NCBI GenBank assembly: GCA_943736015.1
Contig: OX031065.1
Coordinates: forward strand, 51,066,992 to 51,130,991
DNA length: 64,000 bases
Source of the DNA: Tridacna crocea
Taxonomy: Eukaryota; Mollusca; Bivalvia; Cardiida; Cardiidae
Direction: 5' to 3'
A program made the translations under genes and the position numbers. The notes under the pieces are model-generated. The model saw only the letters and a list, made by a program, of their open reading frames with translations. It was not told the origin of the DNA and made no database searches. This document shows, piece after piece, positions 46,401 through 49,400 of the stretch (position 1 is the stretch's first letter; each line of letters opens with the position of its first letter).

Positions 46401-49400
46401 CTTTAACCCTTTACCAAAAGACAAAATTTTAGATGGGTCTAAATTGAAAGCATTTGCAGATGACAAAATAAAAGTAACTAAAAAATTGAAATTAGTGTCT
46501 AGCAGGGTAGAAAACATTGTGGGAAAAGGAGAAAATGCTGGTTACCAGCATTTCCTCCTTTTCCCACAATGTTTTCAAAAGGCTTCTATCTCAGGGTCAT
46601 AAAAACCAGGGATTGTTTGGTAAAGGGTTAAAATATGCTTAGGGAGATGCAAATATTGGTGCAAACAACTACTTTTTGATAACATCTAAAAATGCCATGT
46701 TACAGAACCCTGAAGAAGACAAACACATGTAACAAGCAATTTCTCCTTTTCCAGCAATGCTTTCTGCTCCTTGAAAAGAGTATTAAAGAAACATTTTACT
46801 AGTTGACTGTAAAATGCTTACAATTTGGACCTGTCAAAATTTTGTCATTGGCTACAGATCCAATTCATTTCTATGGTAAAACTCTTTACCATACGGTAAA
46901 ATGCTTGTGTACTTTTGAAAGAGTAGAAAGCCAAGTGGCTTTGGAAAAAAAGTCACTGGTTGCAAGTGTTTCTCTTTTCCAACAATGTTTTCAATGTTTT
47001 CTTTTTGGTCACATGACCCAGTTAGGAAAAGGATTCACACAGAAAAAAATATGCAGAAGCAATAAAGAGTCATTCAATCAATTTAACATTTAACCAAACA
47101 ACAAAATTTTGGACTCTCACATATAAAGCATCTGCAGACCACAAATTAAATCAATGTAGCTAAAATGATGACTTTTTCTTTGATTGAGAAAAAACATTGC
47201 AGGAAAAGGAGAAAATACTAGTTACCAGCATTTTCTCCTTTGCCCACAATGTGTCAAAAGCCTACTTATTCAGAGAATTGAAAGCATTTGCAGAAAACAA
47301 AATAAATGTGAATTGAAAATTGAAATATGATTTAGAAAGGGCAGAAAACATTGTGGGAAAGCAAGAGGGCCATGATGGCCCTGTATTGCTCCACTGGCTA
47401 ATAAGTAAAAACACTACAAGCCAAACATTACAATACTTGGCCAATTGGTTCCAAACTTGAGGACATACAAATTTTTTTCTATAAAATCCTACAAGAAAAT
47501 TGTGACCTCCTGGCAAAGCCAATTTCGATCACAAAGCTATAATCACTTGAATCCTGGTGGAGGTCCACAAGATAAAGCCCCCATACCATATAATACAGGT
47601 CTAGAATGTGTGGTTGTAAACCAGGGATTGTTTGGTAAAGGGTTAAGTCAGACACAAGCTTACATTTAATCAGTGGAATAACTCAAACAAGTCAACCTCA
47701 AGTTTAAATAACCCTGACAAAGAAAACTTTTGAAACATTGTGAGAAAAGCAAAAACATGATGATAACCAGCATTTTCTATTTTTCCCACAATGTTTTTTA
47801 CACTTTCAGAGATAAATCACATCATAACAGCCACAATAAATCTGTTGTCCAAAAATCCTTTCAGCATGGAGAAGCCAATGGTTATGTCATTAGATACAAA
47901 GTTAATCATTATTACCATTAGATAACGCTCGTCCTAGTTCATTAGCACTGATAGAACCGCTTCTGTCAGTATCAATCCTAGGTTAAAAGAAAATGTACAA
48001 AAAAATCATGCTTTAATAATTTTTTGGAAAAATGCACATCTACTGTAAAGCTCTAACTATCATGCCTCTAAGCTGAATATTATGGTCAACACATCCAAGA
48101 TCTGCAAATGCTTTCAGTTTTGTCATTTGGTAAAGAGTTAACCCATTACCACACAATCCCTACTTTTGACGCCCCTGAGAAAGAAACCTTTTGAAAACAC
48201 TATGGGAAAAGGAGAAAACGCTGGTAACCAGCATTTTCTCCTTTTCCCACAGTGTTTTCTACCCTTACCAGAACAAATTTCAATTCTTTAGTCACCTTCA
48301 TTTTGTCGTCTGCAAATGCTTTCAATTTGGTCCAGTCTAAAATTTTCTCGTGTGGTAAAGAGTTAAAACCCTAAATTGTTGGTAAAGTATTAACCCTGTA
48401 CCAAATTAAACAGAGATTGACCATCCTAAAAGTTTTTTAATACATTGCAGGAGAAGGAGAAAATCACCATTTTCTCCTTTTCCAACTACTTTTTCTATCC
48501 TTTCAGAGACAGAAATCATTACTGACTTGAGCAACATTCAAGTTGTTGTCTGCGCATACTTTTCATTTTGTTTTGAGTGACTGCACAAAATTTTGTGTTT
48601 GGTACAGAGTTAAATATAGCATGCAAGTATAATATACAACAGCCAACTAAAACATTCTGTCGTGACCATTTCGACATCTTGGGATTCTCATCTTACCATT
48701 ACTCAAAGCTGAAGCAAGTTCTTGAGCTGTGATTTGTCCACTTCTGTCTTTGTCTACTCTACAGTGAGAGAAATGTTTCAACATTAGAGGTAAATTTCTT
48801 AACAAGTTACTACACAATCCAGAGTTATGAAAACCCTGAAAACAGAGGCCTTGGAAAACATTGTGGATAATGGAGAAAAAGCTGGCAACAAACAAGCATT
48901 CTCTCCTTTTCCCCACAATGATTTTTACCAGTTGAAAGACAACTTCCATTACTTGAGTAATATGAGTGAAAATTTCATGGAAAATGCCACAATAACTACC
49001 AGTATTGTTTTGTTGTATGCAAAATTGTTTCAATATGGATAAACCTGAAATTTGTCTGATAAAGAATTAAGCCATTACCACAAATTGTGACAATCCCTGC
49101 TTTTGACAACGCTGAGGAAGAAGCCTTTAGAAAACATTGTGGGAAAAGGAGAAAATGCTGGTAACCAGCATTTTCTCCTTTTTCTACAATATTTTCTACC
49201 CTTCACAAAACAAGTTTCAAATTTTAAGTCACTTTTATTTTGTTGTATGCAATTGCTTTTGATTTGGACATGCCTAAAATATTGTCATTTTGATAATGAG
49301 TTAACACAAGAACAAAAAGTGACTGAGACTATTTCATCAGGATCAAACTGGATATATCGTCGGGTGCCCTAACTGCGCCCCTGACCTAACTCTGTCACCA

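Follow-up and report, generated by a model that had tools for sequence, protein, structure and literature searches.

The PDCD6/ALG-2 gene of Tridacna crocea was found to carry a tandemly duplicated exon 2, the two copies of which (2a and 2b) each encode a version of the first EF-hand (EF1) and are predicted to be used one at a time; the probability of this reading was put at about 0.88, and it is very probable that two alternative protein isoforms are made. Mutually exclusive use, which had been proposed in a first-pass annotation of the same DNA, is consistent with the equal phase and length of the two exons, with the break in reading frame when both or neither are included, with purifying selection, and with matching pairs of predicted X1 and X2 proteins in three gastropods. 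That annotation had known of no such switch in ALG-2; likewise, no description of an EF1 exon pair in this protein was found in the literature searched, from which most subscription journals were absent. Predicted isoforms embodying the swap are already present in protein databases.

PDCD6 is encoded on the minus strand of the window (i.e., the whole stretch of 64,000 nucleotides that was analysed), where its CDS extends from 55905 to 40336 and comprises six coding exons, all on that strand, which were read and joined. The coding part of exon 1 (55808–55905) ends with GVFQ and the first two bases of a further codon, and is followed by the donor GTAATT; position 55807, previously given as the exon 1 donor, is the first base of the intron, since the exon ends at 55808. 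Intron 1 contains a large inverted repeat (50881–55534) with arms of up to 711 nt that are 99% complementary, representing a young fold-back structure. Exon 2a (48697–48758) and exon 2b (47916–47977) are separated by an intron of 719 nt (47978–48696), and are followed by exon 3 (44520–44564; 45 nt, coding for 13 residues), exon 4 (43080–43238; 159 nt, EF2 and EF3), exon 5 (42043–42152; 110 nt, EF4) and the coding part of exon 6 including the stop codon (40336–40437; 102 nt, EF5).

The predicted product is PDCD6/ALG-2, a group I penta-EF-hand (PEF) protein. ALG-2 chains were its top PDB matches (E = 2.4e-83, 281.9 bits), with sorcin scoring 141.4 bits; Pfam EF-hand families exceeded their cut-offs in both the 2a and 2b forms, and alignment with human ALG-2 identified five EF-hands. 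Within the window, tblastn produced neither a third EF1 copy of PDCD6 nor a second exon 5 or exon 6, using queries that included an extra EF4 from Mya and the EF5 of Lingula isoform X3. Rfam produced no matches in the window, and no Pfam family was recognised in seven long open frames. Elsewhere in the window, three segments of the plus strand (15514–15567, 17366–17425 and 19917–19985) encode EF-hand-like peptide pieces of another gene, which presumably resembles a calbindin/calretinin-type six-EF-hand protein.

When re-read in the sequence, exons 2a and 2b were both 62 nt in length at the positions first assigned to them, each with its own splice sites (AG before and GT after) and in equal phase. 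Each encodes K, 20 complete residues and G, where the K and G are derived from codons split with the neighbouring exons. Joining exons 1-2a-3-4-5-6 or 1-2b-3-4-5-6 produced 191 residues in either case, and the two forms are 96% identical over the whole protein; inclusion of both exons, or of neither, led to a stop codon shortly past the junction. The original proposition that only one of the two can be used is accurate for productive mRNAs, given the early stop that follows from any other combination, but the frame rule alone does not prevent the exons from being spliced together.

Between the two exons, 24 of 62 bases and 7 of 22 residues are different; the original count of 13 matches among 20 residues holds for codons wholly inside the exon, and becomes 15 of 22 when both split codons are included. 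Retention of the calcium ligands in both versions was also confirmed, as both 2a and 2b have D at loop positions 1 and 3, S at 5, G at 6 and E at 12. Their differences were relatively few for the divergence of the underlying DNA: dN was 0.33 and dS 1.92 (NG86; 22 codons, including the two shared with exons 1 and 3), giving dN/dS of approximately 0.17. In a neutral simulation that placed 24 random base changes on exon 2a, only 1 of 100,000 trials altered no more than seven residues without introducing a stop codon; with a transition bias, 7 of 100,000 trials were as conservative as the observed pair. The exons are under purifying selection relative to each other. When the 2a peptide was compared with the window by tblastn, 2b was recovered with E = 2.3e-6, while the flanking introns matched at 20/60 and 17/60 bases, such that no similarity was kept. 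Given that the exons are related and their flanking introns are not, only the coding part has been conserved.

How one exon might be chosen over the other was considered in the light of intron structure. Each mRNA would take either 2a or 2b, probably under the control of splicing regulators, and transcripts with both or neither would meet an early stop and be degraded by nonsense-mediated decay. Among several known routes to exclusion is steric hindrance, where a short intron or distant branch point prevents adjacent exons from being joined, although mutually exclusive exons do not require it. In OGDH, for instance, the duplicated exons 4a and 4b set calcium sensitivity, and distant branch points are reported to enforce exclusion, which limits how long the intron can be and leaves no room for transposons (PMC7969005). 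The ALG-2 pair is unlike this: its intron is 719 nt long and contains a copy of a dispersed repeat (48138–48358), while the AG-free stretch before the 2b acceptor is 31 nt. The shortness of this stretch makes a branch point near the acceptor likely, and together with the long, repeat-bearing intron it makes exclusion through lack of space unlikely.

The dispersed repeat itself is approximately 220 bp long; it was found at 61 merged places on both strands, accounting for about 12 kb of the window, and folds on itself as RNA with an energy of -84.9 kcal/mol. Two copies (48138–48265 and 46504–46631) could pair and thereby loop out exon 2b. Such pairing is unlikely to be the switch, since the repeats are simply copies of the 61-place element and appear to be far more recent than the duplicated exons.

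Two other accounts of exon 2b were weighed against mutually exclusive use. In one, 2b is a poison exon, included alongside 2a or skipped with it, so that ALG-2 is shut down through nonsense-mediated decay and the protein sequence of 2b is of no use. Joining 2a to 2b does produce an early stop, and the length of the intron and the 31-nt stretch mean that the splice sites alone would permit it; however, a poison exon need not preserve an EF-hand, yet 13 of 20 full codons specify the same residue and every ligand is kept. Moreover, across species it is the 2b type of protein sequence that has changed less, and database proteins containing 2b alone exist, albeit as predicted models. This explanation was considered very improbable. 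In the other, 2b is either a degenerating duplicate or an assembly artefact, in favour of which is that 2b is, in this species, predicted from genomic DNA. The low dN/dS and the neutral simulation both contradict decay, and the unrelated introns show that 2b is neither a recent nor a collapsed copy. It occurs at one place in a chromosome-scale assembly: among the best-scoring candidates, the exon 2b DNA had a single match in the 1.05 Gb genome, and this was inside the window. In the fragments of PEF paralogues on C1 and C16, EF1 is different and there is no intron before the part corresponding to exon 3. Decay or artefact was judged the most remote of these explanations.

The possibility that 2b belonged to a PEF paralogue was ruled out by the same fragments, which differ in EF1 and do not have the PDCD6 intron. 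These loci (C16:40558618-40563813 and C1:57744690-57752115; L004 and L007–L010) are pieces of two other PEF genes, in which EF1 directly joins the exon 3 part, and which we take to be peflin-like.

Matching isoforms were sought through three protein searches, with 120, 35 and 120 matches listed. EF1 segments were cut from 144 of 150 proteins, the 2b form of the window included, while six did not fit the pattern. Pairs of isoforms named X1 and X2, differing only within the EF1 segment, were present in Gigantopelta aegis (P0010/P0007; 6 residues), Littorina saxatilis (P0018/P0009; 8 residues) and Biomphalaria glabrata (P0032/P0020; 9 residues). These gene models are predictions, each isoform of which carries exactly one EF1 version; the longest contig was equally long for both members of each pair, which fits a single locus. 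Exon 2a has V immediately ahead of the loop and Q at loop 7, and in this matches X1 in Gigantopelta and Littorina, while 2b, with I ahead of the loop, S at loop 7 and N at loop 11, matches X2 in Gigantopelta, Littorina (where loop 7 is T) and Biomphalaria. In all four species having both forms, loop positions 1, 3, 5 and 12 are identical between 2a and 2b, and three columns separate every 2a from every 2b, i.e., the one immediately preceding the loop (V or I), loop 7 (Q or H in 2a, S or T in 2b) and loop 11 (varied in 2a, N in 2b).

Isoleucine before the loop was observed in 13 of 144 segments, namely the 2b form of the window, 10 rows with gastropod names, a coral (P0132) and a row without a name. 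The residue code is imperfect, as Babylonia (P0061) and Nucella (P0098) combine this isoleucine with H or Q at loop 7. The first-pass annotation had inferred two isoforms for this animal and suggested that the pair be sought in other molluscs; the gastropod proteins show that it is not special to T. crocea, but only the V type was visible in six bivalve rows (Mya, Dreissena, Mercenaria, Ruditapes, Mizuhopecten and Sinanodonta), as was the case for one chiton and two cephalopod rows. The database was clustered at 90% identity, at which level a partner form that is 96% identical could be hidden, and the isoform labels X1 or X2 on several V-only rows hint at partner forms. One of the bivalve models, Mya arenaria P0002 (labelled LOW QUALITY), contained, one after the other, two EF4 (exon 5) stretches of differing sequence, perhaps reflecting a second duplicated exon in Mya.

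Comparison of the segments indicated that the duplication is probably old. The 2b segment of the window shares 18, 18 and 20 of 22 residues with the three gastropod 2b segments, compared with 15 of 22 with its own 2a. Overall, 2b–2b comparisons (n = 6) ranged from 17 to 20 of 22, and 2a–2b comparisons (n = 16) from 12 to 16. It is only the 2b side that forms a tight set, however; mean identity among 2a segments of different species was 14.5, no higher than the mean of 14.5 for 2a and 2b within species. Phylogenetic tests were applied to 25 chosen segments of 22 residues each. Forcing the pairs of the four species together was rejected (AU p = 0.0276, on only 22 sites), while a single 2b clade was not rejected (AU p = 0.465, for the same 25 segments and 22 sites). 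In the unconstrained ML tree, Nematostella, Drosophila and Lingula X3 fell among the 2b rows. The full-length tree grouped isoforms by species because the remainder of the protein is shared, and it gave T. crocea no firm position, although the best database matches of its protein were bivalve (Mya, Dreissena, Mercenaria and Ruditapes).

These results could reflect separate duplications in several lineages, or homogenisation within species, rather than one event common to the molluscan pairs. The small number of sites, the untidy ML tree, and the fact that 2a copies are as distant from one another as they are from 2b, are all compatible with this. Against it are the greater proximity of the 2b segment in T. 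crocea to gastropod 2b than to its own 2a, the three columns that divide the four 2a from the four 2b segments, and the rejection of species-by-species pairing; separate origins were thus considered unlikely. On the residues compared, the duplication of exon 2 most likely predates the split of T. crocea from the gastropods. The bivalve–gastropod split is Cambrian or older, and the option of making either of two ALG-2 forms has probably persisted in molluscs over a very long time.

A related pattern was observed in the brachiopod Lingula anatina, where isoforms X2 (P0021) and X3 (P0083) are identical over residues 1–28 and 41–151, and differ by 7 residues in EF1 (29–40) and by 12 in the last 31 residues (152–182), corresponding to EF5. 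The X3 isoform does not have the DxDxDG motif in EF5, reading DTGRTG where X2 has DTDQDG; EF5 is the dimer hand of ALG-2. Such a distribution would be expected if exons 2 and 6 both had alternatives. The two rows are associated with contigs of unequal size and different gene names, however, and two Lingula genes are therefore possible; in the segment tree, X3 was not placed with 2a. If one gene does make both isoforms, EF1 and EF5 would be switched together.

With respect to function, the high-affinity calcium sites of ALG-2 are reported to be EF1 and EF3 (PMC5037681), and the E47A substitution in EF1 abolishes binding of Sec31A and ALIX (PMC4346919). Pocket 3, the Sec31A peptide site, includes V35, L48, A51, L52, S53 and G55, and L52A lowers Sec31A binding (PMC4346919; L52 also in PMC3397542). 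Alignment to human ALG-2 showed that these six positions are encoded by exon 2, G55 being shared with exon 3. The isoforms had been said to differ only in the first calcium site; the differences are indeed within the EF1 exon, but they go beyond the loop to the residue before it and to the exit helix, which are parts of Pocket 3 (PMC4346919). At the position of human V35, 2a has V where 2b has I, which is the most constant difference between the two. In the window, L48, A51, L52 and S53 are identical in both forms, while the pair of residues separating L48 from A51 in the helix is A-S in 2a and G-R in 2b.

An on/off switch would have one version losing its calcium ligands, and here both have kept them, so the choice of exon would tune ALG-2 without switching EF1 off. 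In EF-hands, the residue at loop 7 contributes a backbone oxygen to calcium (PMC9177970), and Q or S at this position may tune calcium affinity. The V/I difference and those at loops 7 and 11 would be expected to shift both the calcium response and the binding of Pocket 3 partners of the Sec31A/COPII type. It seems rather probable, judging from these substitutions, that the two forms differ measurably in calcium or partner binding; that Pocket 3 is the main target of exon choice is a more doubtful suggestion. The latter is weakened by the statement that no ALG-2-binding motifs have been found in the ALIX and Sec31A of invertebrates (PMC5037681), and the molluscan partner may be another protein.

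Tandem alternative exons that replace an EF-hand also occur in alpha-actinin, where the mutually exclusive exons 19a and 19b of ACTN1/ACTN4 alter the calcium response, 19a being needed for calcium binding (PMC4435478, PMC9741552). In alpha-actinin, a member of a different protein family, only one version binds calcium, whereas both ALG-2 versions keep their ligands. A splice choice is already known in ALG-2 itself: an alternative donor produces a mammalian isoform without Gly121-Phe122, with changes to calcium affinity and partner choice that affect ALIX binding (PMC5037681). That choice lies elsewhere in the protein, while the molluscan pair swaps the whole EF1 exon. Among bivalves, alternative duplicated exons are reported for the alternative oxidase of Crassostrea virginica (PMC5589949), an unrelated enzyme without a calcium site. 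Mutually exclusive exons are therefore a known type to which the ALG-2 pair would belong, apparently as a case of tuning rather than of on/off control.

The EF-hand splicing of alpha-actinin has been described as limited to chordates (PMC9177970); the ALG-2 pair would extend EF-hand exon swaps beyond that type. According to PMC4346919, crystal structures do not reveal the basis of calcium-dependent Sec31A binding, and two natural EF1 versions seven residues apart give a direct handle on it. A conserved alternative EF1 exon is in effect a natural experiment, in which EF1 and Pocket 3 are tuned while calcium binding stays intact. ALG-2 links calcium to ER export (COPII), to ESCRT and to cell death. 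Only tentatively, ALG-2 of molluscs, and perhaps of lophotrochozoans, might be viewed as a two-state sensor, in which alternative exons of great age would remodel the calcium loop and one side of the Sec31A/COPII pocket while calcium binding is kept, so that tissues could choose between two calcium set-points or two sets of partners.
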